Assembly (NCBI RefSeq): GCF_027359675.1
Contig: NZ_CP114786.1
Coordinates: forward strand, 5,306,501 to 5,370,500
Length of the DNA stretch: 64,000 nt
Source of the DNA: Roseibium sp. Sym1
GTDB lineage: Bacteria; Pseudomonadota; Alphaproteobacteria; Rhizobiales; Stappiaceae
Direction of reading: 5' to 3'
Positions 1-28,564 of this stretch are shown here, piece after piece. The translations under genes were made by a program, and so were the position numbers. Every line of letters begins with the position of its first letter. Within the stretch, counting starts at the first letter, position 1. The notes beneath the pieces were generated by a model, which did no database searches, was not told where the DNA came from, and worked only from the letters and a program-made list of their open reading frames with translations.

Positions 1-1140
1 TTCTTTGATTTCGGGAGGCGTTTCGACAACCGGCGGGGTGACGGGCTGAACTTCCGGAACCACCGGAGCCTCTGGCGCGTCTTCGCGCGGTGACGCAACA
101 AGGACGGGTTTCTGATCCTGATCGGGAACCGTCTGACCAACGAGGAAATAGACACCCGCCGCCCCGACACCGGCAATTCCCAAAAAGGACAGGGCAACCA
201 GAACGCGCTTGGCCCAACTGGTCGAGGGCGGAGGCTGGTCGAGCGCGGCCTGCTCGGGTGGCGGCGACGACGGCCTGATCACTGTCCGGTCTTCCACCTG
301 CCGCTGCATCGGTGCGCCGAGTGTCCAGCCGGCAATCTCCGCCATGCTTTCCGGCCGATTTGCCGGATCCGGCTGCAGCATCGCCTCCAGCAGCGGGCGG
401 AACCGGTTGTCTATGCCGTCCAGTGACGGGATCTGGCGCCGCTTCTCGACGATCTGAACCTGCGTACCGCCCATGTCGACCTGGGTGCCGAGCAAGGCCT
501 CAGCAATCACCAATCCGAGCGAATAGATGTCGCTTCGTGCCGTGACTTTGCCGTCGAATATGCCGACCTGCTCCGGGGACACGTAGTTCACCTTGCCGGC
601 GAAACCGTCGCCAATGATCGTCGGTCCGCCGGTATTGGCCCTGGAAATACCGAAATCGATGATCTTCGCCTGGCCGACGTCGCCGTTCTGAAGAATGATG
701 TTGTCCGGAGACAGATCCCGGTGGATGACCTCCCGGTCGTGGACCGCCTGAAGCGCGGATGCCAGGCGCTGGAGCAGCCGGAACACGGCTTCCGGTTCCA
801 GTGGTCCCGATTGCAGGCGCGTCTTCAGGGACGGACCACCGACGAATTCCATGGCAAGGTAATAGATGCCAAGCGTCGGTTCCTTGGCAAAGACGTAATA
901 CTGTGTCAGCGCATCATGTTTCAGCTTGCGGAGAATTTTGGCTTCGCGCTTGAACAGGTCCAGGATCATTGGATCCTTGGAAAAGTTTGCCAGCAGAACC
1001 TTGACCGCAACCGGATCTCCGCTTTCCACGTCCCGGGCCCGGTAGACGGTTCCGATACCGCCGTCGGCGATATGTTCCTCAATCTCATAGAGATTGTTGA
1101 GCCGGGTTCCGGCCGGCAACAGTTGGTCCGCTGGGCTCAT
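1..1140 (-). CDS. ppkA: T6SS Ser/Thr protein kinase PpkA (partial, C-terminus beyond window)
   Basis: Membrane-bound Hanks-type Ser/Thr kinase that, in known T6SSs, phosphorylates threonines read by the FHA protein to switch assembly on. The frame is open from ATG at 1140 to the window edge (380 codons, no stop), so the periplasmic C-terminus is missing. Visible kinase features are the ATP-binding Lys in VAVK (K47), HRDLSPDN (140-147, catalytic D142), DFG (162-164) and SPE for the APE motif. After the kinase domain come a Pro-rich juxtamembrane segment containing DRTVIRP (T286) and one membrane helix at about 312-332. The ATG overlaps the pppA stop as TGATG, so the two are translationally coupled. 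T286 resembles threonines in TssL, TssG and the M23 peptidase and may be an autophosphorylation/FHA-docking site (inference). Confidence 0.93.
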   Translation of the reverse strand, partial: MSPADQLLPAGTRLNNLYEIEEHIADGGIGTVYRARDVESGDPVAVKVLLANFSKDPMILDLFKREAKILRKLKHDALTQYYVFAKEPTLGIYYLAMEFVGGPSLKTRLQSGPLEPEAVFRLLQRLASALQAVHDREVIHRDLSPDNIILQNGDVGQAKIIDFGISRANTGGPTIIGDGFAGKVNYVSPEQVGIFDGKVTARSDIYSLGLVIAEALLGTQVDMGGTQVQIVEKRRQIPSLDGIDNRFRPLLEAMLQPDPANRPESMAEIAGWTLGAPMQRQVEDRTVIRPSSPPPEQAALDQPPPSTSWAKRVLVALSFLGIAGVGAAGVYFLVGQTVPDQDQKPVLVASPREDAPEAPVVPEVQPVTPPVVETPPEIKE

Positions 1141-1904
1141 CAGTTGCGAGCTCCTTCATCCGGTGGCGCCCGGTCCACATCCACGATCACGACTGTCACG
1201 TTATCCGATCCACCTTCATTCAGGGCCCCGTTGATCAGCCCGTGCGCCGCCAGACTGGCTGCGCCGTTCATCAATAAGGTCCCGATCACACTGTCATCCA
1301 GGTGACCTGTCAAACCATCCGAGCATATCAGGAACCGGTCCCCCGACCGGAGATTTCCGGATACAAGTTCGAGTTCCAGGTCCAGCCCCGTCCCGATGGC
1401 GCGTGTAATGATATGACGTCTGGCAAAGGTCCTGGCCTCTTCCTTCGTCAGCACGTTCTGGTCGACGAGTTCCTGTGCTTCGGTGTGGTCCGTCGTCAAC
1501 TGCTCCAGCTTGCCGTTGCGCAGGCGATAGACACGGCTGTCCCCGGCCCAGAGACAGGCGAAGTTTTTCTGGAAAGTCAGGAGGGCGGCGATCGTGGTTC
1601 CCATATGCGCGCCGTCGGCATTCCTGGACGCGCTCTCTATCCGGTCCTTTGCGGTGATCAATCTGCTTTCGAACTGCTCGAGCAGATCCTCACCGCTTCT
1701 TGGCGCCGCGATCGTGGTCAAGGCGTCGCGCACAAGCCCCGACGCCATCGCCCCGGCATACATTCCGCCGGCACCGTCCATCACGGCAAACACCCCCTTC
1801 TGCTCGTCGACAAAATAGGTGTCCTCGTTTTCTGCGCGAACCTTGCCGACATGGGTCATGCCGACGGCGAAACCCCGCAGTGTTTCCTCCTGAATCTCCG
1901 TCAC
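1140..1904 (-). CDS. pppA: PP2C-family Ser/Thr phosphatase PppA
   Basis: Metal-dependent protein phosphatase that reverses PpkA phosphorylation in T6SS threonine-phosphorylation pathways. The predicted 254-aa protein has the PP2C motifs in order: RAENED (metal Asp28), VMDGAGG (Asp43), GDSRVYR, SDGLTGH and GGSDNVTVV near the C-terminus. It has no membrane segment, so it is probably cytosolic. I chose the GTG at 1904 because GGAGG lies 10 nt upstream and the GTGA overlaps the tagF stop by 4 bp; the same frame stays open further upstream but only through tagF sequence. The tagF-pppA adjacency mirrors the TagF-PppA fusion known in Agrobacterium; here they are separate, overlapping genes. Confidence 0.93.
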   Translation of the reverse strand: MTEIQEETLRGFAVGMTHVGKVRAENEDTYFVDEQKGVFAVMDGAGGMYAGAMASGLVRDALTTIAAPRSGEDLLEQFESRLITAKDRIESASRNADGAHMGTTIAALLTFQKNFACLWAGDSRVYRLRNGKLEQLTTDHTEAQELVDQNVLTKEEARTFARRHIITRAIGTGLDLELELVSGNLRSGDRFLICSDGLTGHLDDSVIGTLLMNGAASLAAHGLINGALNEGGSDNVTVVIVDVDRAPPDEGARN

Positions 1905-2581
1905 GTTCGATGATCCTCCGGATGAGATCGCCCATGATGTTCCCCTGCCACGGCATCCAGACCTTCCGGCGCTGAATGGTGTTCCGGCAGCATCAGCCAC
2001 CGGAACGTGTCTGCTGCCGGCAACCCGCCGCAGTCAAAGACAAATTCGGTTTCGCCGGCCGGGCACCTGAACCTGGACCTGACTGTCCCGTCGCTGTCCG
2101 GCGATGGCGCCAGCCGGGCCGCGTCCTGCAACAGGTCGCCGCCGTCCGAAGCCGCGGGCGGCTCAAGGTCCGCAATGGCAGTTTGAAAGTCTTCAAGCCT
2201 GGCCTCCTCCCGCAGGGCGCCCAGCAGAATGGCCTCGGCCGCGTCGAACCAGTCCTCCATGGGAACACCGTCCGTCCCCTCGGCAGCGGCGACAAGGGTC
2301 AAGGGAAACTCCCGGCCGACCTTGTCCACGCTCGGCATGAAGGCGCCGGCCACCGCTTTCGGCAACTTTTGCGTTTCAGTTGCGGTATCACCCGGCCAAA
2401 TCCGAAACCTCCAGACCGGCATCGTCATGTAGGCCTCCTTCCAGGCGTCCCCCAGGTCCAGCCTGGATTGAGCGAGCCCCTGCATCAGGAACGGCTCCCA
2501 CAGTTTCAAAAAGCCTTTCGGGCATTGCCCGATCACAAAATCCGAGCGGGCCGGCAACTTGCCGAAGTAACCGCAACTCAT
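1901..2581 (-). CDS. tagF: T6SS-associated protein TagF (ImpM family)
   Basis: A 226-aa TagF/ImpM-family protein, known as a post-translational repressor of T6SS firing. The N-terminus has the family signature FGKLPARSDFV (residues about 5-15), followed by the conserved aromatic-rich region ending near WLMLPEH. The frame is open upstream of 2581, but that stretch overlaps tssM and encodes an Arg/Ser-rich shadow. The ATG at 2581 lies 1 nt past the tssM stop and begins the conserved domain. The end overlaps the pppA GTG by 4 bp, so tssM-tagF-pppA-ppkA are translationally chained. Confidence 0.92.
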   Translation of the reverse strand: MSCGYFGKLPARSDFVIGQCPKGFLKLWEPFLMQGLAQSRLDLGDAWKEAYMTMPVWRFRIWPGDTATETQKLPKAVAGAFMPSVDKVGREFPLTLVAAAEGTDGVPMEDWFDAAEAILLGALREEARLEDFQTAIADLEPPAASDGGDLLQDAARLAPSPDSDGTVRSRFRCPAGETEFVFDCGGLPAADTFRWLMLPEHHSAPEGLDAVAGEHHGRSHPEDHRT

Positions 2582-2582
2582 C

Positions 2583-6239: not shown

Positions 6240-6260
6240 CGATAAAGCCTTATTCTGGTT

Positions 6261-7871
6261 CTAGTTGTTAATGACCAGGCCGCCGCCTGCCGGTTTCAGG
6301 AAGACCTCGACACGCCGGTTCAGCGCCTTGCCGTCCCGGGTCGTGTTGGGGGCAATCGGCTCGTCCGCACCGCGCCCTTCCACCTCGACCCGGTCGGGTG
6401 CCTGCAGCACGGCCTTCATGACTTCGGCCACCGATTTGGCCCGTTCGACCGACAGGTGCCAATTGGTCGGGAAACGGGGATTGTTGCGGATCGGGTCGCT
6501 GTCGGTATGTCCGACAACGAGGATTTCGCCATCAACCTTGTCCAAAGTCTGGCTGACCTGCTCGACCAGCAACTGGAACTCCGGACGCAACGTTGCCGCG
6601 GCAACGTCGAACTGGGCGCGCATGCGCAGCATGATGGCCGGACCGGCCTGCTGGATCTCGACCCCGTCGAGGCCGGCCAGCTGTTCGGAAACCGTGTCGA
6701 TCGGAGCGTCTTCCGGTGGTGGCGGGGCCGGAGGCGGTTTCGGCCTGTAGCCCTCGCGAGCCAGTTCGACAGGCCCCGTGGGATAGAGCGACGCGGCGCG
6801 GCCGGCAACGACCTCGCTGCCGCTGGACAGGAGCAGCAGGAGAGTGACATAGCCGCCCAGCAGCAATGCGCCGGCAACCGCGGCCACCGACCAGATCGGA
6901 ATTGAAAAGCCGGTGCGCCGCTGCAGAAGTTCAAGGCCGCGCCAATGCGGTGACAGGTCATCGCCCGGGCGCGGGCGCACACGCCGCAGGATCTCATGAA
7001 GATCGCGGCGTTCGCGCTCAAGTCCCTGCTGTCCGCCCTGGATCGCACGATATTTTCCGTAGAACCCGAGCGACAGACAGGCATGCATCACTTCCAGAAC
7101 GCCGTAATTGCGACCGGGGTCCTGCTTTGCGTTTTCCAGCAGCTGGAAAAATTCGACCCCGCCGGTGGCCTGGCCGAAAAACTGCGTCAGCATGGAATAT
7201 TGCGTCCATTGGTGACGTCCGGCAGAAGGCAGGTTCTGAACGATATCGTCGGACGTCGCGCACAACGCATAGGCCGCCGAGCGGATCTGGTCGTCCGTGA
7301 TGCCCGCGCTGCGCAGATCTTTTTCGAATGTCTTGATGGCGTTGTAGACATCGCGCATCAGCTGGTCGAACTGCGCGTCGGTCATGGTCAGGTGCAGGCG
7401 GCCGAGCAACAGAAGCAGCGGAGCGGCGGCACGCGAAATGGGATTGCGGTTGGCGACGCGGATCTGGTTGATGTCCGGCGTGTGGGCCAGTTGCCCGGAC
7501 TGTGGTGCCGGTCCGGCTTGCGGTTGCGCAGGCGCTGCGCCGGGCCCCGGCGGAGGTGTGTGAAGATCAGGTGCCTGCTGCTGGCCATATTCATAGCCCG
7601 CCGGCGTCGCGGCATAGGGATCTGCCTTGCCCGCGCCGCCACTTTGCCAGGGATCGCTCCCCCCCTGTTGTGCCGGAGGCTGCTGTGGCGGCGGCGGAGG
7701 TGCCCCTTGGGGCGACGCTGCGGGTGGCGACTGAGGCGGCTGTTGAGGCTGCCCTGCCGGCCCGGTCGGGCCGGCAGGCTGGTCCTCTTTCCATCGACCG
7801 CCCGGATTGGGCATGACAATGGTTTTGCCCTTGCGCTTGGAGACGCCAAAGGGGTCGTCCTTGTCCGACAT
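6261..7871 (-). CDS. tssL: T6SS membrane protein TssL (DotU) with C-terminal OmpA/peptidoglycan-binding domain
   Basis: Extended TssL of 536 aa. Order: a disordered Pro/Gln-rich N-terminus (1-130), cytoplasmic DotU domain (about 135-320), one membrane helix (about 325-347), and a periplasmic OmpA-like domain (about 415-530) with GHTDSDP and NRRVEVFL that should anchor the complex to peptidoglycan. The first residues contain GKTIVMP with T17. In Agrobacterium, TssL Thr14 is phosphorylated by PpkA and bound by Fha; T17 is the obvious equivalent here. ATG 7871 overlaps the tssK stop (TGATG); the TTG one codon upstream is less likely. The built-in OmpA domain may compensate for a missing separate anchor (inference). 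Confidence 0.95.
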   Translation of the reverse strand: MSDKDDPFGVSKRKGKTIVMPNPGGRWKEDQPAGPTGPAGQPQQPPQSPPAASPQGAPPPPPQQPPAQQGGSDPWQSGGAGKADPYAATPAGYEYGQQQAPDLHTPPPGPGAAPAQPQAGPAPQSGQLAHTPDINQIRVANRNPISRAAAPLLLLLGRLHLTMTDAQFDQLMRDVYNAIKTFEKDLRSAGITDDQIRSAAYALCATSDDIVQNLPSAGRHQWTQYSMLTQFFGQATGGVEFFQLLENAKQDPGRNYGVLEVMHACLSLGFYGKYRAIQGGQQGLERERRDLHEILRRVRPRPGDDLSPHWRGLELLQRRTGFSIPIWSVAAVAGALLLGGYVTLLLLLSSGSEVVAGRAASLYPTGPVELAREGYRPKPPPAPPPPEDAPIDTVSEQLAGLDGVEIQQAGPAIMLRMRAQFDVAAATLRPEFQLLVEQVSQTLDKVDGEILVVGHTDSDPIRNNPRFPTNWHLSVERAKSVAEVMKAVLQAPDRVEVEGRGADEPIAPNTTRDGKALNRRVEVFLKPAGGGLVINN

Positions 7872-9205
7872 CAACGGCCCTCCCGGATGGCATAGAATTC
7901 AAGCTGCAGGTCCGGCCAGTTGCCGGAGAACTGAAGCCCGACCGCCGAATCCTGGCTGAATTCGCGCCACAGGGGCGTCGTCTTGTCGAGGCGAAAATAG
8001 ACCCGGTCCGTCAGGGCGCGAATTTGCGCCGGCGGCACCGGCATGTGGATCAGCGGGATGCCCGGCAGGTTGGAATAGACGATCTGGCGCATCTGACCGA
8101 ACGGCCCGACCTTGAACAGTTTGGGAAACTCGTTCTGGATCTCGGTCAGCGGACGACGTGCCGCCACCTCGATCACAAAGCTTGCCTGCGAGAACAGGTT
8201 CCGGTCGACCACCGTCGACTTGAATGCGTTCGGAGCAAGCTGTTCCAGGGGAAGACGAATCGCCCGGCGATCGTAACCGGCAGACAGGAACGCCTGGATA
8301 TCCGACAGCACCGGCTTGAAGATGTCGTGCAGCTTGTCATGATCGTAGACAGGATAGTTGCGCGCCCGGCGCTCTTCCGTCGCAAAGGTCGCAAGTTCAC
8401 CTGCAAGCTGGAGAAACTCAGAATACAGCCGCTCGGGATGCACGTAGGCCGACTTTCGCAGATGCATCAGCAGCGGATAGGTCCGGTTGAGCATCTGAAG
8501 GGTCAGGTAGTCGAAGTTCTGCAAGCCGCCGCCCGCAGACGTGTCGGCTGCGTACCGGGCCAGTTCACTGAGCTTGCGCTCCACCCAGCCGATCACGGAA
8601 TCGATCCAGCCCGTGACCACAGGATGAACATGGCAGGCCAGCACGGGCGGAGCGAAAGCCCCGTCCGTTATCACGATCCTGTCCTTGATCTCGGTGATCC
8701 GCGCAACGGGCAAACACACCTGGCCCGGATGGGGAGTCGAGCGGATTGAATAGGTCAGTCGCGGATGGGCAACGTCGATTTCCTCCTCCTGGCGGATTGC
8801 GGAGGTGGAATCGATAATGGTCTCGCGGTTCTGCACATAACGTGTTGCCGCGTCATCCTTGCCATTGGCGACCTCAACCGCGTTGACCGTGGTTTCCGGA
8901 ATCCCGAGCCAGACGATCTGGCCCGCGGCGTCTTCCGGAACGTCGATCGCCGGAGGCGGCGTGCCGTCGGCAGGGAAGTTGAACACCGTTCCATCGGCAA
9001 AGATGCCGCGCCCGTAACGCAACGCAAATCGGCATTGCTGACCGACATCCTGGTCGATTTCCAGGTCAGAGAACCCCCACGGATAGGGAGACGCGAGCCG
9101 CACCCGCTCATCCAGCAGGTGTTCCGCGTAACGGTCGCTTTGCTGCAAATGGTGCGGCCGCAAAAACAGGCCTTCGGTCCATGCAACCTTGCTATACCAC
9201 GACAT
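7871..9205 (-). CDS. tssK: T6SS baseplate protein TssK
   Basis: A 444-aa TssK (VasE/ImpJ family), the trimeric adaptor linking the baseplate to the TssM/TssL membrane complex. The N-terminus WYSKVAWTEGLFLRPHHLQQ (2-21) is the strongly conserved family signature. A GGGAG-type ribosome site precedes ATG 9205 at somewhat long spacing. It lies 56 bp after the FHA-protein gene and overlaps tssL by 1 nt, within the minus-strand vgrG-to-ppkA unit. Confidence 0.96.
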   Translation of the reverse strand: MSWYSKVAWTEGLFLRPHHLQQSDRYAEHLLDERVRLASPYPWGFSDLEIDQDVGQQCRFALRYGRGIFADGTVFNFPADGTPPPAIDVPEDAAGQIVWLGIPETTVNAVEVANGKDDAATRYVQNRETIIDSTSAIRQEEEIDVAHPRLTYSIRSTPHPGQVCLPVARITEIKDRIVITDGAFAPPVLACHVHPVVTGWIDSVIGWVERKLSELARYAADTSAGGGLQNFDYLTLQMLNRTYPLLMHLRKSAYVHPERLYSEFLQLAGELATFATEERRARNYPVYDHDKLHDIFKPVLSDIQAFLSAGYDRRAIRLPLEQLAPNAFKSTVVDRNLFSQASFVIEVAARRPLTEIQNEFPKLFKVGPFGQMRQIVYSNLPGIPLIHMPVPPAQIRALTDRVYFRLDKTTPLWREFSQDSAVGLQFSGNWPDLQLEFYAIREGR

Positions 9206-9261
9206 TAAGTCACTGCTCCCTTGATGCTGTCGGCGCCTGCGCGCTCTTTGACCGCAATAGC

Positions 9262-10959
9262 TTAATCAAATCCTCCGGGGATCGCCCCCGGATCGTCCTT
9301 GCTCATTTCCTCGTAACTCTCGGTGAAATACTGCGTGAAAACACCCACGAGACCATCGTCATAAGACTTGGTCAGTGATGTCCAGCGCTCTTCCAGCCGT
9401 TCCCAGAGTTTGGCTTTCTGGTTTCCGAATGTGCTCTTGGCAACCTGGCCTTCCGCTTCAATAGCCGTCGGCGACAGGGTTTCATCGAACCGCGCTGCAG
9501 CCTTTTGCATGGCGGCATAGGTCCACACATGGTGTTTCTGAATATCCTTGAACGCCGCAGACATGGCCTTTGGCAGGGGCAGATAGCCATCTTCCTCCGC
9601 GCGTTGTGACAACATTGTCTGCAAGGCCATCTGCGGGGTTGGCGAGAATTTCAGGGCATTGTTGCCGGTGCGCGCAATCAGCGTCCTGTTGGCATTGCGC
9701 GTCATTGCCTTGACCTGGCTGCGAGCCTGAAGCAGGCCCATCAGGTCTCCGGCGATGCCGTTAAGCACCGTCCCGAGTTCCCGAGCGAACTCTTCCGGGT
9801 CCCGGTCCCTGAGAGCATCGGGCGGCAGCCCTGCCCCTTCCGCGAAGGCCTTCAGGAAATCAATGGCATCACCGGCGACAGGTTGACCTGTATCGCCCTG
9901 CGGACTGCCCGGTTCCGACGCGGGAGGAACCGGCGGCATGGAAGGTTCAGCAGCGATCTGCGGACTGACCTTCTCCACACTGACGGCCGGGGCCGGCGTG
10001 GCGGCCGGGGCCTCCGGGGTGATGGATGAAGCCGTGTCGTCGCCCGGCCAGACCGGGGCTTCGGAAACGGAAGATCCTTCCTGCTCCGGAACGCCACCTG
10101 GTTCGAAGGCCGGTTCGGCCTGTTGTGGAGACGCCGCAGGTTCCAGGTCGGGCATCTGGAACATCGGTTCCGGTGTCGCGCCCGGCCCCTCGCCGGCTGC
10201 CGGCGGGAACGCTCCGGGTTGACCGGCTGTCGAGACCGGCTCCCTGTGAAGGTCCGGCTGCTGGGCAAGATGGTCCAGCGGATCGGCCTGGGAGGGACGC
10301 GCCGGTTCACGATCCGGCTGTTGCGCCTTCGGGTCATAGAGAGCTGGATCCGCGTTGCCCCAGCCGTGTCCCTGCTGGCTCCAGACGTCGTCCGCCGGTG
10401 TTCCGATCCCTGCATCTCGTGATGGTGGAGCGTGCGGGCCTTCGAAACCGGCGCCAGGGGTCGCCCAGGGACCGCCGGCCGGTTCGGAAGGATACGGTGC
10501 CTGAGGCGCTGCCGGTCCCGGGCCGGACGGCCAGGCGGATCCGGCGCCGACCGCTTCGGGTTGCGGTGCATTCCAGGGCTGACCTTGCTGATAGGGTGCG
10601 GGGGCAACCGCGCTTGCCGAGGAACCCTGGTCCCGTGCGGCGGAATTCTCCAGAGACACGGCGATGATATAGTCGCCGATCATCACGCGATCACCGGACC
10701 TCAGCACGTGAGCCTTGTCCATCCGCGTCTGGCTGCCATTCAGGAAGGTGCCGTTGGTGGAAAAATCATAAAGGACGAACTGGCCACCTTCGAACCGCAC
10801 CTCGCAGTGTTTTCCCGAGATCACGCGCTGCGGGTCGGGCAGGCTCCAGTCAAGATGCTCGTGCCGGCCAATATCGAATCCGCGATCGGCACAGCTGTAG
10901 GACAGCTGCCCGCCGCTTTCCAGTCGGTCAACATTCTCGATCTGGAGAGTGATACGCAT
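9262..10959 (-). CDS. tagH: T6SS FHA-domain protein (Fha/TagH type)
   Basis: A 565-aa cytosolic scaffold that reads phospho-threonine and promotes T6SS assembly in known systems. The FHA domain occupies about residues 25-100 with the binding residues intact: GRH (31-33), ISGKH (47-51) and STNGTFLNG (67-75). A Pro/Gln/Glu-rich disordered linker (about 110-355) follows, then a C-terminal helical domain typical of T6SS FHA proteins (about 365-560). Candidate ligands in the same cluster are threonines in TssL (T17), TssG (T19), PpkA (T286) and the M23 peptidase (T20). It lies 25 bp after the DUF6931-like gene. Confidence 0.93.
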   Translation of the reverse strand: MRITLQIENVDRLESGGQLSYSCADRGFDIGRHEHLDWSLPDPQRVISGKHCEVRFEGGQFVLYDFSTNGTFLNGSQTRMDKAHVLRSGDRVMIGDYIIAVSLENSAARDQGSSASAVAPAPYQQGQPWNAPQPEAVGAGSAWPSGPGPAAPQAPYPSEPAGGPWATPGAGFEGPHAPPSRDAGIGTPADDVWSQQGHGWGNADPALYDPKAQQPDREPARPSQADPLDHLAQQPDLHREPVSTAGQPGAFPPAAGEGPGATPEPMFQMPDLEPAASPQQAEPAFEPGGVPEQEGSSVSEAPVWPGDDTASSITPEAPAATPAPAVSVEKVSPQIAAEPSMPPVPPASEPGSPQGDTGQPVAGDAIDFLKAFAEGAGLPPDALRDRDPEEFARELGTVLNGIAGDLMGLLQARSQVKAMTRNANRTLIARTGNNALKFSPTPQMALQTMLSQRAEEDGYLPLPKAMSAAFKDIQKHHVWTYAAMQKAAARFDETLSPTAIEAEGQVAKSTFGNQKAKLWERLEERWTSLTKSYDDGLVGVFTQYFTESYEEMSKDDPGAIPGGFD

Positions 10960-18982: not shown

Positions 18983-18995
18983 GTTTTCGACCTCT

Positions 18996-19675: not shown

Positions 19676-21669
19676 ACCGGGAATTTCTCGACCTCTACAA
19701 TCAGGAACTCATCTACCTGCGTGAACAGGGCGCAGCCTTCGCCGAAGCGTATCCGGCGGTCGCGGAACGCCTCGGCGGGTTGCTGGAGGATCGTTCGGAC
19801 CCGATGCTCTCGGGTCTGCTGGAAGGCACCGCGTTTCTGTCTGCCCGCGTGCAGCTGAAGATGAAACATGAATTCTCCGAATTCACCTCCAATCTCTTCG
19901 AGCAGCTCTATCCGACGGCCCTTGCCCCGATTCCCTCGATGGTCATGGCGCGGGTCACGCCAAAATATGGCGACGCCAACCTGCGCAACGGCATCAGGAT
20001 CAACCGTCACGCGCCCATGGAAGCCGTCTTCCGCGAACGCCAGGGCGAGGTCCGTTGCAGGTTCACGCTGACCTCACCCATCACGCTCACACCGCTGCAA
20101 TTGACAGACGCCAAATATCTGAGTTCCGCGGCCCAGGTTTCCGGTCTGGGTGCCGAAATGGCGGAAGACCGCCGCGCCAGGGCCGGCCTGTCGATCACGC
20201 TGACCCACCGCATGGCGGAAGATCCGGAAAACGAGGTCTCGGCGGAAGAAGCCATGAAGAAGCCGGAATATCAGGTCGCGGGTTGCCGTATCGACGATCT
20301 CCCGGTCAGGCTCGTCGGGCCGTTGGACCTGGCCGCAAAGGTCTATGAACAGATATTCGGCCATACGATTGCGCTCTATCTGAGAACCGAAGACGCCTAT
20401 GGCCAGGCAAGCCTGCAGCGCCTGCCCGTCGACGCAGTCAAGCAGCTCGGTTTCGAAGAGGAAGACGCGCTGCTGCACAATGACCTGAGGCTGTTCACCG
20501 GGTTCGATTACCTGCGCGACTATTTCAATTTTCCGCGCAGTTTCCTCGGCTTCCGGCTGACAGGCCTGCGGCGCTATCTCGACCGGGTGAACGCGAAATC
20601 CTTCGATCTCGTGTTTGTCTTTGACGAAGCGGACTCCCGCCTTCCCGCCCATGTCGAACACAAGATCTTCGCGCTGCATACGTCGCCGGCCGTGAACCTT
20701 TTCGAACGCCAGACGGACCGGGTGCCGATCAAGAAAGGACAGCATGAGTTTGCCGTCATCACGGACCGGACCCGGCCTCTCGATTACGAGGTTCATTCCG
20801 TTACAGAGGTCAACGCCCATTTTTCCGGTGGTGAAAAACGGCCCGTCGAGCCTCTCTACAGCGTCGCACCCGACACGGAAAAGGCAGGCCACGAGTGGTT
20901 CTATTCGATCCGCCGCCTGCCGCGGCGGCAATCCTCATCGGAACTCCGCCGGCAGCAGCCAATCTCCTATGTGGGGACGGAAACGTTCATAACCATTTCG
21001 AGCGGCGCACAGGCAGCCGCACTGCTTCAAAGCGGCGAGAAACGCCTGGCGGAACTTTCCCTGAAGGTGATGGCCTCCAATCGCGCACTGGCCGCTGACC
21101 TTCCCGTCGGCTCCAATCCGGACAAGTCGGACACCGGTGACTTCCGCATACTCGAGGACGTCGGACTGAAAGTGGACTGCGTTGCCGGACCGACATCACC
21201 GCGCCCGCCTCTCCTGTCCTACAACGAGCGCCTTGGCGAAGAAGGTCATTCCGGCGCCATCGCCTGGCGTCTCATCAACATACTCGCGCTCAATCACACG
21301 GGACTGGTGCACGATGCCGCCGGCGCGGACGGGCGGTCTTTCCGCGACATCCTGAGCGTGTTCGCGCCGCTTTCCGACAATACCGCAGACCGTCAGGCCC
21401 AGTCTGTCCGCGCAGTCTCCACCCGCCCCGTGGTCCGCCGACTGCAACAGAAATCGGGTACGGGCGTTGCGCGCGGCCTGGAAGTGACGATTACGCTCGA
21501 CGACAAGGCCTTTGAGGGTTCCAGTGCCTTTCTCCTGGGAGCGGTGCTGGACAGGTTTGTCGCCGAATACGCCTCCATCAACCACTTCACCCAATGCGTG
21601 ATCGCAACCACCGAACGTGGTGTGATCATGAAATGGCCTCCCCGGATCGGCGCAAAGGGAATCCTATGA
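19672..21669 (+). CDS. tssF: T6SS baseplate protein TssF (VasA/ImpG)
   Basis: A 665-aa baseplate wedge protein. The N-terminus FLDLYNQELIYLREQGAAFA (4-23) and DPMLSGLLEGTAFLSARVQ (about 43-61) are the family signatures. The C-terminus ends with FLLGAVLDRFVAEYASINHF and MKWPPRIG, typical of TssF. Four-base ATGA overlaps on both sides link it to tssE and tssG, consistent with a TssE/F/G wedge made in fixed ratio. Confidence 0.97.
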   Translation: MNREFLDLYNQELIYLREQGAAFAEAYPAVAERLGGLLEDRSDPMLSGLLEGTAFLSARVQLKMKHEFSEFTSNLFEQLYPTALAPIPSMVMARVTPKYGDANLRNGIRINRHAPMEAVFRERQGEVRCRFTLTSPITLTPLQLTDAKYLSSAAQVSGLGAEMAEDRRARAGLSITLTHRMAEDPENEVSAEEAMKKPEYQVAGCRIDDLPVRLVGPLDLAAKVYEQIFGHTIALYLRTEDAYGQASLQRLPVDAVKQLGFEEEDALLHNDLRLFTGFDYLRDYFNFPRSFLGFRLTGLRRYLDRVNAKSFDLVFVFDEADSRLPAHVEHKIFALHTSPAVNLFERQTDRVPIKKGQHEFAVITDRTRPLDYEVHSVTEVNAHFSGGEKRPVEPLYSVAPDTEKAGHEWFYSIRRLPRRQSSSELRRQQPISYVGTETFITISSGAQAAALLQSGEKRLAELSLKVMASNRALAADLPVGSNPDKSDTGDFRILEDVGLKVDCVAGPTSPRPPLLSYNERLGEEGHSGAIAWRLINILALNHTGLVHDAAGADGRSFRDILSVFAPLSDNTADRQAQSVRAVSTRPVVRRLQQKSGTGVARGLEVTITLDDKAFEGSSAFLLGAVLDRFVAEYASINHFTQCVIATTERGVIMKWPPRIGAKGIL

Positions 21670-23291
21670 GCGGGTCCGACGGCAAGAAAAAGCGCAAGAA
21701 GGACAAGCAGGCGGACAAGACGATTGTCCAGTTCGCCGGGTCCGGCAAGGCGCCATGGCCTGCGCCTGAAGCCCCCACACCGGCAGATGACGGAGCCGCG
21801 ACTTCGCAGTCAGCGGAAACACCGGATGTTTCGACCGAGGCGATCAAATCGCACACGCCGGACTCGCACACGCCAGACTCGTCCGCGCCAGTATCGCCCG
21901 CAACAGGATCAAATGAGCCGGACTCGCCAGAGCTCACATCGTCCGACACCGATCTGGCAACGACCGGTTCCCCCGGGCAGGTTCCCGAGGCACCTGTTGA
22001 CGAACCTGCCACGGCGCCCCCGGACAAGGATGTCGCCGGCGAGACGGGCCGGGAACCGGACGAGCCCGAAATAACCGTCTCAACCGCCGACGTTTCCCCT
22101 GAGCCGGAAGCAGAAGACGCTCCGCAGGAGCCGCCCAGGATCGAGGTTCCCGTTCAGCAGCAATACGCCTCGCTTCTGGCGGCCCTCAGCGCACGGATCG
22201 AGAAACATCCCGGCGGTCACGATCTTCTGGCCGTGCTGCGCATGCTCGAAGGACAAACCGCCCCCGGCGGTGCGTCGAAGGGAATGGACCCCAAGAAAGC
22301 CGACGAACCGGCCCCGCCGCGGATCGGCAAGAGCCGGCGCCTGATGGAGGACATCGTTCGCTTCGGACAGGACCCGTCGAGCGAGTTCGCCCCGTCGACC
22401 ATCGAGCGGGCCACCCGCGACAGTCAAGGCGATCTGGTCCTTCTGGAACGTTTTCTGGGCCTGCTCGGCCCCCAGGGCGCCCTGCCAGCCGCTTATACCG
22501 ACGAAGCCATCATGAGCGGCCTCAAGGGCGAGGACAGCTTTCCGCGATTTCTGGATGTCTTCAACAACCGCTTTGTCCAGTTGTTCTTCCGAGCATGGGC
22601 CGATGCCAGGCCGATCGTGCAGCATGACCGGCCCGACGACGACCGGTTCCTGGCCTATATCGGATCTGCCATCGGTATCGGCTCGCCGATCTACCAGAAC
22701 CTCGACCGCATCGATGACCGGATCAAGCTGTTATATGCCGGGCTGTCGGCCTCCAAGGCCAAAAGCGCGATCCGCCTCAAGGCACTGATCACCGGCGTGT
22801 TCGGCGTGAAGGTGGAAATCGACCAATGCGTGGGGACATGGCTCCATCTGGATCCCGACGACCAGCTGAAGCTGGGTGGCCTCGGACCCGGTGGCGCAGG
22901 GCAACTCGGAGCAGACACGATCGTCGGTGCCAAGGTCTACAGCGTCAGTGACAAGATCCGCATCCGGATCTTCACACGGACGCTGGAGGAGTACCGCAAA
23001 TTCCTGCCACCCACCCGGACCAAACCCAATCCCTGGACGGAAAAACTCTTTGATCTCATTGACTTCTATCTCGGGCTCGAGATCGAGTACGAGATTGAAC
23101 TCGCCCTTCCGAAGCGCTGCGCCTCCGCCGTCAGGATGGACAGCACAAGTTCCGCAACCCTCGGTCATATCGGCTGGCTGAAGCCTGCAAAACCAAGCGA
23201 ACCGGAGCCGGACGAAACGCTCGAGGACGAGGAAATGCTGACGGATACCCGTTTCCGGCCCGTGCGCCGCCACACCACCGTTTATCAATAG
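21666..23291 (+). CDS. tssG: T6SS baseplate protein TssG with long disordered N-terminal extension
   Basis: The C-terminal part (from about residue 165) is a normal TssG/ImpH domain: FLGLLGPQGALPAAYTDEAI, FLDVFNNRFVQLFFRAWADA and the C-terminal KCVGTWL-like/VRMDSTSSATLG region. The protein is 541 aa against roughly 330-350 aa usual for TssG, because of an N-terminal low-complexity extension rich in Pro, Asp, Ser, Thr and Glu with imperfect TPDS repeats. The first 25 residues are Lys-rich and contain DKTIVQF (T19), similar to the TssL site at T17. ATG 21666 overlaps the tssF stop (ATGA); the frame is open upstream but inside tssF. Confidence 0.94.
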   Translation: MSGSDGKKKRKKDKQADKTIVQFAGSGKAPWPAPEAPTPADDGAATSQSAETPDVSTEAIKSHTPDSHTPDSSAPVSPATGSNEPDSPELTSSDTDLATTGSPGQVPEAPVDEPATAPPDKDVAGETGREPDEPEITVSTADVSPEPEAEDAPQEPPRIEVPVQQQYASLLAALSARIEKHPGGHDLLAVLRMLEGQTAPGGASKGMDPKKADEPAPPRIGKSRRLMEDIVRFGQDPSSEFAPSTIERATRDSQGDLVLLERFLGLLGPQGALPAAYTDEAIMSGLKGEDSFPRFLDVFNNRFVQLFFRAWADARPIVQHDRPDDDRFLAYIGSAIGIGSPIYQNLDRIDDRIKLLYAGLSASKAKSAIRLKALITGVFGVKVEIDQCVGTWLHLDPDDQLKLGGLGPGGAGQLGADTIVGAKVYSVSDKIRIRIFTRTLEEYRKFLPPTRTKPNPWTEKLFDLIDFYLGLEIEYEIELALPKRCASAVRMDSTSSATLGHIGWLKPAKPSEPEPDETLEDEEMLTDTRFRPVRRHTTVYQ

Positions 23292-23315
23292 GTCTCAAAT
23301 CGAAGGACCGAAGCC

Positions 23316-26129
23316 ATGGCTGACATTACCGTAGAAAACGTTGCCTACAAGATTAACTCGGTTGCTTACGAGAGCCTCGACAAGGCGATGCGGCTGACCA
23401 AGGATGCCGGCCACAGGCACCTGGAACTGCTTCACTGGTTCTACTACCTGATACGCGACGAAAAATCGGACCTGTTCCAGATCCTGCGCCATTTCGACGT
23501 GGACCTTGGAACGCTGGACAAGGACCTTCAGAACGCCATCAAGGAGCTGAAGATCAACCAGACCGAACTGCCCGCCATGTCCAAGCCTTTTCGCGAGGCG
23601 CTGGAGGGAGCCTGGTTCGTGGGAACGCTCAGCTTCGGAGATTACAAGATCCGGTCCGCCTATGTCCTGATCGCGGTTCTGGGCGACGAATCCTCGCGCA
23701 CGCAACTGTTCAGGCTGTCGTCCGAATTCAACAAGCTCAAGCGTGACGAGATCTCCGGCAATCTGGATGCGATTGTCGACGGATCCGGAGAAGCGCGCGC
23801 CCGCCCGATCGACGGGTCCGGTCCAAAGGCCACGGCCGCGGCACCGGGCGAAAAGGGTGCCGAACCGGTCCCCGGCGGCCCCGGCGAAGATGCTCTTTCC
23901 CAGTTCACGGTCGATTACACCGCGCGGGCCCGAGCGGAGGAATTCGATCCGATTGTCGGGCGTGACGAGGAGATCCGGCAGGTCATCGACGTCCTGATGC
24001 GCCGCCGGCAGAACAACCCGATCCTCACCGGCGAGGCCGGTGTCGGCAAGACCGCCATTGTCGAGGGTTTTGCCCAGAAGATTGTCGCGGGGGACGTGCC
24101 ACCCGCCCTGCTGGGCACGCGGCTGTGCGCCCTCGATCTCGGACTGCTGCAGGCCGGGGCCTCGATGAAAGGTGAATTTGAAAAACGCCTCAGGGCCGTG
24201 ATCGATGCGGTGCATGGCTCGATTGTGCCGACCATCCTGTTCATCGACGAAGCGCATACACTGATTGGTGCCGGTGGCGCCGCCGGAACCGGCGACGCGG
24301 CGAACCTGCTCAAACCGGCGCTGGCGCGCGGCACCCTTCGTACGGTTGCCGCAACGACGTGGTCGGAATACCGCCAGCATTTCGAGAAGGACCCTGCCCT
24401 CACCCGTCGGTTCCAGCCGGTCCAGGTGGACGAGCCGGATGAGGAAAAATGCTTTGCCATGGTGCGCGGCCTGCTCGGTCCGATGGAAGAACACCATCAG
24501 GTGCGCATTCTCGACAGCGCGGTGCGTTCCGCCGTGTCCCTGTCGCATCGCTACATTCCGGCGCGCCAGTTGCCGGACAAGGCCGTCAGCGTTCTGGACA
24601 CGGCCTCCGCGCGGGTGAACATCTCCCAGGCAGCGCAACCCTCCAGGCTGCTCGACCTGATCGCCAAGAAAGGCTTCCTTGAAACGGAAAGACAGGCCCT
24701 GACCAATGATGCCGAACTCGGCATGGAGCAGGACGAACAGCTCGAGGCGCTGAACGCGGCGATCGAGGAAACGGAGACCAGGATCGAAACGGTCCGCGCC
24801 GACTGGGAACGCGAGCGCAAGCTGGTCGCCGAGATCCGTCGTCTGAACAAGGCTCTGATCCAGCTGAAAGGCGGCGAACCGGCGCCCCATCCGGAAGGCA
24901 CGGAGATCGAAGACCCCGAGCATGAAGGCCAGGCTCTGGTTCCCATCGATGAAATCGAGCTCGACATGGATGTGGATCTGTCCAGCGAGGAGGCAATCCG
25001 CGAAGCGCTGGCCACCAAACGGGCGGAGCTGTCCGAAATTCCGGAAGACGACCGCATGGTCTATGCCTATGTCGATGACGAGGCGGTGGCCAGCATCATC
25101 TCGGACTGGACCGGCATTCCGGTCGGCCGCATGGTCCAGGATGAAATGGAGATGATCCTCAACCTGACCGACAGCCTGAACAAGCGCGTCATCGGTCAGG
25201 CCCATGGCCTTGCCATGATCGCGAAACGTATCGAGACCAGCCGGGCCCAGCTCGGCAACCCGGACAAGCCGATCGGCGTGTTCATGCTTTGCGGCCCCTC
25301 CGGTGTCGGCAAGACGGAAACCGCGCTCGCCCTTGCCGAAACGCTCTATGGCGGCGAGGAAAGCCTGATCACCATCAACATGTCCGAATTCCAGGAAGCC
25401 CATTCGGTCTCCGGCCTCAAGGGCGCGCCTCCGGGCTATGTCGGCTATGGCGAGGGCGGCCGGCTGACGGAAGCGGTCCGCCGCAAGCCCTATTCCGTGG
25501 TGCTGCTGGACGAAGTCGAAAAAGCCCACCCCGACGTGCACGAGATTTTCTTCCAGGTGTTCGACAAGGGCTGGATGGAAGACGGCATGGGCCGGAAAAT
25601 CGATTTCCGCAACACCCTGATCTTGTTGACGTCGAATGTCGGCACCGAAACCATCATGAATGCGGCCAGACACATGCTGGACACGCCGGTGTCCAGCGAC
25701 GAAGGCATGGCGGCGACAGATCCGTACGCGCCGGATCCGGAACAGCTGGCGGAAGCCCTGAGGCCGTCCCTCCTCGAGGTGTTCCCGCCCGCCCTGCTCG
25801 GACGGATCGTCACCATCCCCTACTACCCGCTGTCGCCCTCCATGCTCGGCTTCATTGTCCGCCTGCAGCTCAACCGGATCGTCAAGCGCGTGCGGCAGAA
25901 CCGGGATGCCGAACTGTCCTATGGCGATGACGTTGTCTCGCATATCGTGTCGCTCTGCCGCGACCCCGACAGCGGCGGCCGCATGATCGACAACATCGTC
26001 ACCAACGACCTCCTGCCGAAACTGTCGCGCGCATTCCTGACGGCCCAGATGAATGGCGAGGAAATCAAGACCGCGACGCTCAAGATCGCAGACGGCGGCA
26101 TTGCCATCGACATGGGCACACCGGCCTAG
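23316..26129 (+). CDS. clpV: T6SS sheath disassembly ATPase ClpV (TssH)
   Basis: A 937-aa AAA+ unfoldase that recycles contracted TssB/TssC sheath. It has an N-terminal Clp-N domain (1-150), a flexible Gly/Pro linker (about 165-195), a first AAA domain with GEAGVGKT (about 235-242) and VPTILFIDEAHTL, a coiled middle domain (about 450-540) and a second AAA domain with GPSGVGKTE (about 660-668), GAPPGYVGYGEGG and the Clp C-terminal domain. It is the last gene of the plus-strand unit, with a terminator 15 bp after the stop. A long antisense frame opposite it is a composition artefact. Confidence 0.98.
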   Translation: MADITVENVAYKINSVAYESLDKAMRLTKDAGHRHLELLHWFYYLIRDEKSDLFQILRHFDVDLGTLDKDLQNAIKELKINQTELPAMSKPFREALEGAWFVGTLSFGDYKIRSAYVLIAVLGDESSRTQLFRLSSEFNKLKRDEISGNLDAIVDGSGEARARPIDGSGPKATAAAPGEKGAEPVPGGPGEDALSQFTVDYTARARAEEFDPIVGRDEEIRQVIDVLMRRRQNNPILTGEAGVGKTAIVEGFAQKIVAGDVPPALLGTRLCALDLGLLQAGASMKGEFEKRLRAVIDAVHGSIVPTILFIDEAHTLIGAGGAAGTGDAANLLKPALARGTLRTVAATTWSEYRQHFEKDPALTRRFQPVQVDEPDEEKCFAMVRGLLGPMEEHHQVRILDSAVRSAVSLSHRYIPARQLPDKAVSVLDTASARVNISQAAQPSRLLDLIAKKGFLETERQALTNDAELGMEQDEQLEALNAAIEETETRIETVRADWERERKLVAEIRRLNKALIQLKGGEPAPHPEGTEIEDPEHEGQALVPIDEIELDMDVDLSSEEAIREALATKRAELSEIPEDDRMVYAYVDDEAVASIISDWTGIPVGRMVQDEMEMILNLTDSLNKRVIGQAHGLAMIAKRIETSRAQLGNPDKPIGVFMLCGPSGVGKTETALALAETLYGGEESLITINMSEFQEAHSVSGLKGAPPGYVGYGEGGRLTEAVRRKPYSVVLLDEVEKAHPDVHEIFFQVFDKGWMEDGMGRKIDFRNTLILLTSNVGTETIMNAARHMLDTPVSSDEGMAATDPYAPDPEQLAEALRPSLLEVFPPALLGRIVTIPYYPLSPSMLGFIVRLQLNRIVKRVRQNRDAELSYGDDVVSHIVSLCRDPDSGGRMIDNIVTNDLLPKLSRAFLTAQMNGEEIKTATLKIADGGIAIDMGTPA

Positions 26130-26144
26130 GCCGGCCTGAAATGG

Positions 26145-26184
26145 AAAAAGCCCCGGCCGGTCGCGCCCTGCCGGGGCTTTTTTT
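26145..26184. terminator. Bidirectional terminator between clpV and the PAAR gene
   Basis: Stem GCCCCGGC (26150-26157) with GCCGGGGC (26170-26177), flanked by A5 on the left and T7 on the right, so it can end both clpV (plus) and the PAAR unit (minus). Confidence 0.85.
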
Positions 26185-26212
26185 GTCCAATTCGAGGGCT
26201 GGTTGACGTTGA

Positions 26213-26509
26213 TCAGATCCCGATCAGAACGGTGAATTCGCCGGTTGTGATGACGCCACCCTTCAAGGTCGGGTCGCCCATGCGCGCGGCAGGCAGATTT
26301 CCGATCAGGACTGTCGGCGAGCCGAATACGATCGGATCGACATTGGCCGGTGGCGGGCCGACACAAACGCACATGTCCGTCACACGCGCCGCAGGCCGGT
26401 TGCCGATCAGGACGTTCACCATGCAGGGCGGCGCGATCGGCAGGCCCGGAGGGACCGGCGTCATGGAACACATATGAAAATCACCAAGTCGGGCAGCCGG
26501 TTGGGTCAT
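26213..26509 (-). CDS. T6SS PAAR-domain spike-tip protein
   Basis: A 98-aa protein consisting only of a PAAR domain: PAARLGD at 4-10, repeated NRPAARVTD and NLPAARMGDP motifs, and His/Cys residues suited to the zinc site at the cone tip. It sharpens the VgrG spike. There is no N- or C-terminal extension, so it carries no fused toxin. It is the last gene of the minus-strand accessory unit, 102 bp after the M23 peptidase gene, with the shared terminator downstream. Confidence 0.93.
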   Translation of the reverse strand: MTQPAARLGDFHMCSMTPVPPGLPIAPPCMVNVLIGNRPAARVTDMCVCVGPPPANVDPIVFGSPTVLIGNLPAARMGDPTLKGGVITTGEFTVLIGI

Positions 26510-26611
26510 GATCGCCTCTTCGCTGGTTTCGATCCCTGAAGATAATACACCAGGCAGGGTGAAGCTGGTATCCAGATCACACTCCTGCGTTTTTCCTCAT
26601 TTCATCCAGAT

Positions 26612-28564
26612 CTACTGAATGGTCAGGATGTCGGTGATCGACGTTCGATAATCCTTGATATCGTTGCTGGCCACCGATTGCGGTTCGTCCGTTCCCGCCT
26701 CCATCTCGAAGGCAAGCGGGTCCGTGGGGTCCCCGCGCATCCTGATTTCGAAATGAAGGTGCGGCCCGGTCGAAAGCCCGGTGGTTCCGACATAGCCGAT
26801 CAGGTCGCCGGCCTGGACAACCGACCCGAGCTCGATGCCGTCGGCAAATTCATGCATGTGGGCATACCGGCTGGTGATGCCGTCCTTGTGGGTCAGCTCG
26901 ATGAAGTTGCCGTAACCGCCTCGCACAGCCCTGTAGGTCACCTTGCCGGAAAAGGCTGCCCGGATCGGGGTACCCGTGGGCGCTGCCCAATCGACCCCTG
27001 CATGGAGCCGCTCGGTTTTCTTGATCGGATGGAACCGCATGCCGAATTTCGATGTCAGGACCCCTTTCACGGGGACGAGCATGGCCCCGGACAGGCTGAC
27101 CTGGCCTCCCTCACTCACGCAGGCAAAGCCCCTGTTTCCGGGCGCCTTCATGACGTAACACCGGACCGACCAGTCGTTGCCGCGCCGCACGCCGGCAAAC
27201 AGCACCCGACCACCGCCCCGCTTTTCGTCGCGTGGAGCGTCGGTGAAGACCAGGGTGAACCGTTCGTCATCCTTGATCGCACGCTGCAAGTCCGTCATCG
27301 GCGCGAGATAGGCGATCGCCTCGCCCACGATGGACGCGGGAACGGCATTTCGAACCGCCGTCGCATAAAGACCGTCGATCAGCCTGTGCCGGGTTCCGGC
27401 GCCAGATTTCTTGTCGCTGACGACTTCATCTTGAACGATAGGATTGCCGAACCACGGATCCACGCCGTTGACATAGACAGGGCCGTCACGTGTGATCGAC
27501 AAAGCGGCCGTACCCACATAACCGTCTGACGAATGGATCGAAACCTGCACCGGCCGGTAATAATCGCCGACCCGCCCTAGCCGGTTCGGCATGCGCTCGC
27601 CACGCAGCGAGATCTTGTCGCCCGCGACCATATCGCTTTTCTTGAATTCCTCACGCGCATAGTCCAGCAACGGCTTGACCGCATCTTCGTCGAAGCCGTT
27701 CTCCAGGAGGAACTCCTTGAGGGGGACCGTCTTTTCGATGATCTCGCGGATTTCGATCCGGTTCGGCCCCTGACCGATCGGCCGTTCGGAAAGATAGAGG
27801 TTCAACGTGTTGGTCGCCGGTTTCAGGAACACGGGCAGGTCGGGGCCCGTGTCGACGGCCTCGCCGCTGTCGTCCTCGACCGACAGGCCGTCACTGTCCT
27901 CGCCACCGCCGAAATTGCCGAACTGGAAATCCGCTTCGTTTCCGGGAGCGCGAATGACGAGATTGCCATCGTCGTCCAGCATGCGGCTGTCGAGTATGAA
28001 CGCACTTGCTGTCGGGATAGCCGCCTTTCCCTGGCCGCTTGCGGAGGCCGGAACCGGACGCTCCGACAGATCGATCCGACGGCTTGCGGCACCGCCTGCC
28101 AGGAGAACGGGATCACCTGCCAAAGGGATGACCGCGGACAGTGCCATGTCGAAGAATGGATCGGCGGGGATATCCAGGTCCTCATCGTTCACGAGTTCTT
28201 TTTCAATTTCCTGCGGTTGTTCGGGTTCGTCCGGGCCTTCCTGCCGGGGCGCCAGCTCCGTTTCCGTGATTTCCGCGGTCTCTTTTGGCGTGGAAAAGGA
28301 AATCGCCCCTGACGAGATCAGATGCGCAAGTCCTCCTGCCGCACCGCCGATCAGGAGAAACCCGATGGCAAGAGCGGTGTATTTCACAATGCCGCTGCGA
28401 CGTTGCGACGGCTTTCGCGGCTCCGGCCTTGAGGATGCGGGGGGAACAGGACCAGCGGACCCGCCGCCGGGCTGTGCCGGTTTCGCGGCGGGCCGGCGGA
28501 TCACCGTCCGGTCGAATTCAGGCCGGTTCGGGCCTGGGGTGCGATTGTCTGGCCATTGAGCCAT
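26612..28564 (-). CDS. Membrane-anchored M23 (LytM) peptidoglycan endopeptidase
   Basis: A 650-aa protein. The N-terminus (1-65) is cytoplasmic, Pro/Ala-rich and contains DRTVIRRP (T20). A single membrane helix lies near 70-92 (YTALAIGFLLIGGAAGGLA), then a long periplasmic region, then a C-terminal M23 domain (about 510-620) with zinc-site motifs HAGVDWAAPTG and HLHFEIR intact. M23 enzymes cleave peptide cross-links in peptidoglycan. The T20 motif matches the putative FHA-docking motifs of TssL, TssG and PpkA, suggesting recruitment to the T6SS to open the wall (inference). Start chosen at ATG 28564 with AGGA upstream; nine further in-frame codons lie before it. An M23 effector role is less likely because of the membrane anchor. 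Confidence 0.92.
   Translation of the reverse strand: MAQWPDNRTPGPNRPEFDRTVIRRPAAKPAQPGGGSAGPVPPASSRPEPRKPSQRRSGIVKYTALAIGFLLIGGAAGGLAHLISSGAISFSTPKETAEITETELAPRQEGPDEPEQPQEIEKELVNDEDLDIPADPFFDMALSAVIPLAGDPVLLAGGAASRRIDLSERPVPASASGQGKAAIPTASAFILDSRMLDDDGNLVIRAPGNEADFQFGNFGGGEDSDGLSVEDDSGEAVDTGPDLPVFLKPATNTLNLYLSERPIGQGPNRIEIREIIEKTVPLKEFLLENGFDEDAVKPLLDYAREEFKKSDMVAGDKISLRGERMPNRLGRVGDYYRPVQVSIHSSDGYVGTAALSITRDGPVYVNGVDPWFGNPIVQDEVVSDKKSGAGTRHRLIDGLYATAVRNAVPASIVGEAIAYLAPMTDLQRAIKDDERFTLVFTDAPRDEKRGGGRVLFAGVRRGNDWSVRCYVMKAPGNRGFACVSEGGQVSLSGAMLVPVKGVLTSKFGMRFHPIKKTERLHAGVDWAAPTGTPIRAAFSGKVTYRAVRGGYGNFIELTHKDGITSRYAHMHEFADGIELGSVVQAGDLIGYVGTTGLSTGPHLHFEIRMRGDPTDPLAFEMEAGTDEPQSVASNDIKDYRTSITDILTIQ

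Follow-up and report, generated by a model that had tools for sequence, protein, structure and literature searches.

The window analysed here, by which we mean the whole stretch of 64,000 nucleotides from Roseibium sp. Sym1 (G000:C1:5306501-5370500), contains a type VI secretion system (T6SS) locus in which a short threonine-centered motif recurs in the kinase PpkA, the membrane-complex protein TssL, the baseplate protein TssG, a peptidoglycan peptidase of family M23 and, in looser form, the FHA-domain protein Fha. We consider it probable, at roughly 60%, that this motif is a portable PpkA phosphorylation tag read by Fha, which would tie kinase, membrane complex, baseplate and wall endopeptidase together. 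The presence, position and conservation of the tag, its concentration in the T6SS locus and its co-occurrence with the kinase and the FHA protein were directly observed.

The initial annotation of this DNA had listed four such peptides, and all four were confirmed in their proteins and at their threonine codons: DRTVIRP in PpkA, between the kinase domain and the transmembrane helix (T286; 271..291, minus strand, Thr codon 283-285); GKTIVMP in the N-terminal tail of TssL (T17/T18; 7809..7829, minus strand, Thr codon 7821-7823); DKTIVQF in the N-terminal tail of TssG (T19/T43; 21714..21734, plus strand, Thr codon 21720-21722); and DRTVIRRP in the cytoplasmic tail of the M23 peptidase (T20/T29; 28490..28513, minus strand, Thr codon 28505-28507). 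How the residues are numbered varies with the start codon chosen, T17, T19 and T20 referring to shorter ATG starts and T18, T43 and T29 to the longest frames. The list of clients was incomplete, as a scan of 23 locus genes showed Fha itself to have a looser fifth copy, NRTLIAR (T426; 9670..9690, minus strand, Thr codon 9682-9684), in its C-terminal domain (PF20232, residues 374-551). The motif had been written as [KR]-T-[IV]-[IV]; the threonine and the two hydrophobic residues following it are kept, but the basic residue before it is not essential, being alanine in 6 of 29 PpkA tails (EATIIRP or EATVIRP) and proline in Agrobacterium. These PpkA variants rule out a strict [KR] at −1 as the defining feature, and we define the core as T-[VIML]-[IV], commonly with [RKQ]P after it and with the preceding K/R optional.

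Conservation was assessed in a genus sample of 45 genomes, in which presence of the T6SS was defined by a TssL at no less than 78% identity. The system occurs in 29 of these (the window genome and 28 relatives) and is missing from 16. Alignment of orthologues had been proposed as a check that might refute the motif; it did not do so, the core T-[VIML]-[IVL] being kept in every orthologue examined. Between the kinase domain and the membrane helix of PpkA, the latter read from sequence, all 29 tails have T[IV]I[RQK], preceded by K/R in 23. KTIV is present in all 29 TssL tails, within a nearly invariant block (DDPFGVSKR.GKTIV.PNPGG), so the expectation that only the short motif would be conserved within a variable tail fails for TssL, although it holds for TssG. 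In Fha, a threonine before NNxLK was found in 29 of 29, as NRTLI in 27 and NRTMI in two.

TssG (21594..23291, plus strand) has an N-terminal extension of ∼190 residues before its conserved core (PF06996 at 236-530). The peptide [DN]KT[VI][VIL] was present in 27 of 28 frames, and in the 28th (G046) DKTVL is found upstream in a frame of its own; in this genome TssG (L072/L073) is broken between tail and core, reflecting either a frameshift or an assembly error. With the broken gene excluded, frame length ranges from 488 to 778 residues and the tail outside the tag is strongly variable, yet a majority consensus of the N-terminal part shows DKTV in isolation, and DKTV is, core-junction words aside, the commonest shared 4-mer of the tail. 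We also searched for related proteins, taking the best 120 of 1316 matches for TssG and the best 120 of 5495 for the M23 protein, the nearest named proteins in both searches being from Roseibium/Labrenzia. Among the matches listed, 68 of 73 Roseibium-type TssG proteins carry the tag, two more have DKTM and three start downstream of the tail; [DE]KT is found in all 70 that reach the tail. Counted as distinct peptides, 64 from TssG and 39 from M23 have the threonine, both sets having been selected by motif. TssG proteins outside the Roseibium type (330-413 residues) gave one match among those listed, at residue 249 of 380, and the tag as a general TssG feature is ruled out by its absence from all 11 TssG frames of other lineages. 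By these sequence comparisons, the TssG and M23 copies are seen only in the Roseibium-type system among the matches listed, and the TssL copy is common in Alphaproteobacteria; because only the best 120 matches were taken in each search, the absence of the TssG and M23 tags beyond the Roseibium type is unproven. Some TssG proteins (P0012, P0014, P0016, P0020, and P0022) contain a second copy, DKT[IV][IV], 38-74 residues further on, and some TssL tails (G110, G301) also have two copies; such doubled tags would allow bivalent binding.

The fourth protein is an M23 metallopeptidase by domain search (26717..27007, minus strand; PF01551, E 2.8e-31) with HxxxD and HxH ligands, of which H521, D525, and H569 are invariant and H602 and H604 are present in at least 90% of a 48-row alignment, as befits family M23. 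Its closest solved structures are M23 peptidases, including ShyA. A likely transmembrane helix, read from sequence (28313..28381, minus strand), is preceded by an Arg/Lys-rich stretch, which would place the tag in the cytoplasm. The form [DE][KR]T[VI]I was found at 28 of 28 loci, and for the 29th genome (G062) an in-frame DRTVIRP is encoded on a different contig. In the protein search, 64 of the 90 matches listed carry the tag and the other 26 have annotated starts within or beyond the tail region. One alternative is that the gene encodes a neighboring wall enzyme outside the T6SS, whose tag serves another use, and that the code is limited to PpkA, TssL, TssG, and Fha. The gene is convergent to clpV and adjoins a CHASE2 cyclase gene, and M23 relatives at ∼40% identity are widespread without the tag: none of 30 such relatives (the named ones from Rhizobiales) has it but for one loose match (P0226), in the first 110 residues, where the surrounding stretch is Arg-rich and has no acidic residue, a result that excludes the tag as common to M23 enzymes generally. 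However, an orthologue at 63% identity or more is present in exactly those genomes that have the T6SS (29 of 29) and in none of the 16 that lack it, a strict co-occurrence such as a T6SS-dedicated wall hydrolase would show, and the tag block RPEFDRTVIRP provides the commonest 4-mers of the M23 tail. We thus regard an M23 enzyme foreign to the T6SS as unlikely.

A four-residue motif in long, simple tails invites the suspicion of chance or of the shared composition of Pro-rich sequences, particularly as loose matches occur elsewhere in the genome. The pattern [DENG][KR]T[IVL][IVL] was observed in 25 of 25 TssG, 29 of 29 TssL, 20 of 20 M23, and 23 of 29 PpkA tails (automatic anchors captured 25 of 28 TssG and 20 of 28 M23), as compared to means of 0.12, 0.01, 0.01, and 0.02, respectively, in 2000 shuffles of the same tails. 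Thus, 20-29 observed tails stand against shuffle means of 0.01-0.12. The tag is a kept feature in only one of the other 19 locus gene families, that of Fha; stray matches were confined to single members of the PppA, TssM, and OmpA-domain families, and the looser [KR]T[IV][IV] to 4 of 28 cyclases. At the DNA level, the strict pattern D-x-T-[IVM]-[IVM]-x-P gave 86 matches over the 45 genomes, of which 43 are located no more than 30 kb from tssL or on the split contig of G062 (∼1% of the genome). Every T6SS genome (29 of 29) contributes one or more of them; one at least (L107) belongs to a 58-codon frame and not to a gene. A reversed control pattern gave 30 matches, near the 43 found outside the locus. 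Among 30 pattern loci that were fetched, 13 were PpkA or M23, three of the 17 others were in frames of at least 190 codons and 14 in shorter ones. A looser pattern matched nine times in the window genome, namely in TssG, in M23, in two DRTIV frames of more than 300 codons (L334 and L340, candidate frames whose status as genes is unestablished), and in five frames that were short or lacked K/R. Given the shuffles, the concentration of the DNA pattern in the locus, and retention of the tag across the genus amid variable TssG flanks, a chance origin was rejected and receives practically no credence from us.

The earlier statement that a kinase and an FHA reader lie in the same locus was borne out by domain searches. 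The Ser/Thr kinase domain of PpkA (349..1089, minus strand; PF00069, E 1e-39), in a gene that extends below window position 1, has DFG and VA[VIL]K in 29 of 29 proteins and VIHRDLxPxNI in 26. The FHA domain of Fha (10675..10875, minus strand; Pfam) contains the R, S-x-x-H, and N-G positions, which we take to be those of phosphothreonine-binding FHA domains, and this pattern is found in all 29. Its best match in the PDB is GarA, whose signaling in mycobacteria is another pathway. The phosphatase that had also been claimed would correspond to a PppA-type PP2C frame between ppkA and tagF (1140..2000, minus strand; start codon not fixed), a name given by sequence and synteny, and PppA and TagF have orthologous frames, likewise named, in 29 of 29 genomes. 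The PpkA-type kinase and an Fha with FHA and T6SS_FHA_C domains agree with a T6SS threonine phosphorylation pathway (TPP) at this locus. TssL itself (6261..7874, minus strand) has DotU (PF09850) and OmpA (PF00691) domains by Pfam.

The best-studied relative of the TssL tag is Thr14 of Agrobacterium tumefaciens TssL (DLPpTVVEI), which is phosphorylated and bound by Fha (PMC3953482). Kinase, phosphatase, TagF, and Fha are encoded in that locus, as are kinase and Fha and a putative phosphatase and TagF in ours, and in both the TssL tail has a threonine followed by two beta-branched hydrophobic residues; the Agrobacterium site differs in having P at −1 and E at +3, and TssL is the sole client reported there (PMC3953482), whereas in Roseibium PpkA, TssG, M23, and the C-terminal domain of Fha carry the tag as well. 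The Agrobacterium-type tail D-L-P-T-V-V-E as such is not present in the window TssL, where GKTIVMP has T-[IV]-V alone in common with it; LPT[VI]VE tails were seen in two other genomes (L140, L320).

A further line of evidence links the tag to the kinase. Among TssL tails sampled across the phylum, the strict tag occurred in 8 of the 20 that have a kinase gene nearby and in none of the 17 that have no such gene (Fisher p 0.004), and the looser form in 12 of 20 and 1 of 17. For this comparison "near" meant on the same contig within 30 kb, kinase status was judged by eye, and three rows were excluded (L294, with tag present and kinase off the contig; L325 and L326, with the kinase off the contig or 32 kb away). 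Tails were taken as the last 130 residues, whereby the tag of L128 (NRTMIRPNPGR) was lost, and several kinase-free control loci come from the same genome. At the class level, the strict form was found in 14 of 25 TssL tails (counting L141, whose match precedes the likely start codon) and the loose form in 22 of 25, often resembling DRTVIRPxPGG. Some tagged PpkA proteins also occur in other lineages, with for example DATVVRPLP (L295), NATVVRPSD (G239), and DRTILAGALP (G110, G301). In the last two, both Alphaproteobacteria (L184/L185 and L209/L210), the tag is N-terminal, before the kinase domain (NDDRTILAGALP, frame residue 14), as if independently gained. Another conserved peptide, MQRTV[IVL] (residue 522 in G047), was noted in the C-terminal, presumably periplasmic part of Roseibium PpkA. 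It is present in 27 of 29 frames, the other two being shorter, and probably has no relation to the cytoplasmic tag.

These observations also bear on whether the motif might act unphosphorylated, as a short linear motif that adds, for example, a beta strand to Fha, TssK, or TssM. T-[VI]-[VI] is indeed strand-forming and its charged neighbors are kept, but PpkA retains threonine in 29 of 29 proteins while the preceding residue changes, and in a beta motif V, I, or S should be acceptable at that position. The lack of the strict tag in all 17 TssL tails without a nearby kinase gene, and the coincidence of the tag with one proven and one probable phosphosite, argue in the same direction, and we consider an unphosphorylated motif quite improbable.

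The probable phosphosite is that of Fha. Its threonine stands seven residues before the NN of NNPLKF, and QT[ML]I[RQ]PxENNPLKF was found in 18 records, 16 of them from Pseudomonas; the search pattern was built on that same sequence, from an Fha set in which 28 of 30 loci were readable. Other Alphaproteobacteria have ERTTIKPRNNNPLKF, DRTMIRPFGNNPIKF and similar sequences at this site. PpkA sites have been described in Fha at Thr362 in P. aeruginosa, Thr438 in Serratia, and Thr640 in Acidovorax (PMC3953482, PMC2699552, PMC6082577, PMC12607579). Roseibium T426 most likely corresponds to Thr362 of Fha1, as aligned by us, and from position and sequence we infer that Thr438 and Thr640 are the same residue. 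Because the 18 records include no P. aeruginosa, the link between T426 and Thr362 rests on context and, weakly, on position: over the first four possible starts, the threonine could fall at 359-373 in eight of the 18 records, with 294-467 in the others and 432-441 in P. otitidis. The Pseudomonas, Serratia, and Acidovorax systems resemble ours in having a membrane kinase PpkA and an Fha C-terminal threonine, mostly within T-[MLTV]-I, seven residues before the NN of NNPLKF, and differ in that Fha is the target reported there. In G450b, where the TssL tail is Agrobacterium-like (LPTVVEL), Fha gave no match to the NNPLKF pattern, which fits the statement that the corresponding threonine is undetected in Agrobacterium Fha (PMC3953482). 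The proposed role of the motif as a PpkA site is supported indirectly, by T-V-V shared with the Agrobacterium TssL site, T-[ML]-I-[RQ]-P shared with the Fha site, and a strict TssL form that in the phylum-wide sample was seen only near kinase genes.

Phosphorylation and docking are, however, separable. The motif could be a substrate consensus of PpkA alone, with phosphorylation acting locally on charge, conformation, or stability, and Fha reading only TssL or none of the other clients. The classical selector position of FHA domains is pT+3 (PMC3953482), and the conserved core of the tag is at +1 and +2; at +3, R, Q, M, P, N, and further residues are all found, so that what is conserved may owe more to the kinase than to the FHA domain. 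The copy in the Fha C-terminal domain, too, need not serve docking. On the other hand, a reader with its phosphothreonine-binding pattern intact is encoded in the locus in every one of the 29 genomes, and the sole TssL tag studied biochemically in the reports consulted is bound by Fha (PMC3953482). A consensus for the kinase without a general reader appears to us fairly unlikely.

Docking through Fha, the reading we prefer, has further points to its disadvantage. The affinity of Agrobacterium Fha for phosphorylated TssL is weak (Kd 0.54-1.58 mM; PMC3953482), in Serratia, Thr438 of Fha is described as the only target of PpkA (PMC6082577), and TssG foci of Acidovorax form without PpkA (PMC12607579). 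Other words in the TssL and PpkA tails are kept as well as the tag is. The strict TssL tag is missing in 12 of the 20 kinase-bearing loci, and in three loci of family f180 (L296, L306, and L311) a kinase gene lies at a distance of 22-26 kb and the short TssL tail has no tag. The comparison of loci with and without a kinase is itself confounded by clade and tail length, because the kinase-free loci were chosen for having no nearby FHA gene and mostly have short tails. Besides the 11 untagged TssG frames of other lineages, a more distant TssG (P0074, 62% identity) lacks the tag, and the 29 T6SS genomes belong to a single genus and are not independent.

As we envision the tag mechanism, PpkA would phosphorylate the threonine of T-[VIML]-[IV] in its own juxtamembrane tail, in the tails of TssL, TssG, and M23, and in the C-terminal domain of Fha. 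Through its FHA domain, Fha would then bind the phosphorylated tails, gathering kinase, membrane complex, baseplate, and wall-opening enzyme at one site, and PppA would reset the tags. The steps that we infer are phosphorylation, binding by the FHA domain, clustering of the parts, and the gating of wall opening by phosphorylation. Work in Acidovorax describes a catalytic PpkA mutant that binds Fha more weakly, Fha foci that require active PpkA and not the Fha phosphosite, and condensates of PpkA and Fha that take up T6SS parts (PMC12607579); in a Roseibium-like system, a phosphorylated PpkA tail serving as a dock for Fha would by analogy account for both the weaker binding and the kinase-dependent foci.

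A broader and more tentative proposal, to which we give somewhat less than even odds, is that PpkA-bearing T6SSs use a movable tag, T-[VIML]-[IV]-[RKQ]-P, which elsewhere is sited in the Fha C-terminal domain or the TssL tail and which Roseibium has added to the kinase tail, TssG, and the wall endopeptidase, so that upon a single kinase switch Fha would gather the parts and wall opening would be conditional on T6SS activation. If true, one kinase-reader pair would coordinate T6SS membrane complex, baseplate, and peptidoglycan opening in place and time, the T6SS kinase would gain a readable substrate motif with which to predict clients in other genomes, and the Acidovorax link between kinase activity and Fha binding would gain a candidate mechanism in the phosphorylated kinase tail. 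The predictions concern single residues and are testable in an environmental marine bacterium. The nearest parallel to the wall enzyme is TagX of Acinetobacter, likewise a membrane-associated wall enzyme encoded with a T6SS and proposed to let the machine cross the wall (PMC5061870); TagX is an L,D-endopeptidase, whereas the Roseibium enzyme has an M23 domain, and nothing comparable to its cytoplasmic tag was found. A literature search of titles and abstract openings, with subscription journals mostly outside its reach, found nothing joining TVIRP with T6SS and no multi-client tag.

The locus opens on the minus strand with ppkA, pppA, tagF, tssM, tssL, tssK, fha, a DUF6931 gene, and vgrG, continues on the plus strand with an OmpA-domain gene, tssA, tssB, tssC, hcp, tssE, tssF, tssG, and clpV, and returns to the minus strand with the M23 peptidase, the CHASE2-cyclase, a short gene with no Pfam match, and two caspase-like genes. 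Pfam was applied to nine locus genes, and the remaining names were assigned by sequence and synteny. The set from ppkA to the cyclase gene lies within one stretch of ∼38 kb in 27 of 28 relatives, the contig of G062 stopping early; gene positions over this stretch were inspected in three relatives.

The same genome has a second T6SS (G000:C1 ∼1257000-1285000; L174, L175) with its own Fha (TRIQPEENNPFKH), PppA- and TagF-like frames, two PpkA-like kinases, and a TssL tail bearing two [DE]xPTVA copies. An orthogonal tag code for this system was considered and dropped, as no further [DE]xPTVA was found in that locus. Adjoining the first T6SS, the CHASE2-adenylate cyclase and the two caspase-like genes occupy window positions 28675-36121. 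At the genus loci, casp1 is present in 26 of 29 and casp2 in 25 of 29, and casp2-like frames are also found near four other alphaproteobacterial T6SSs (G367, G139, G278, and G196).

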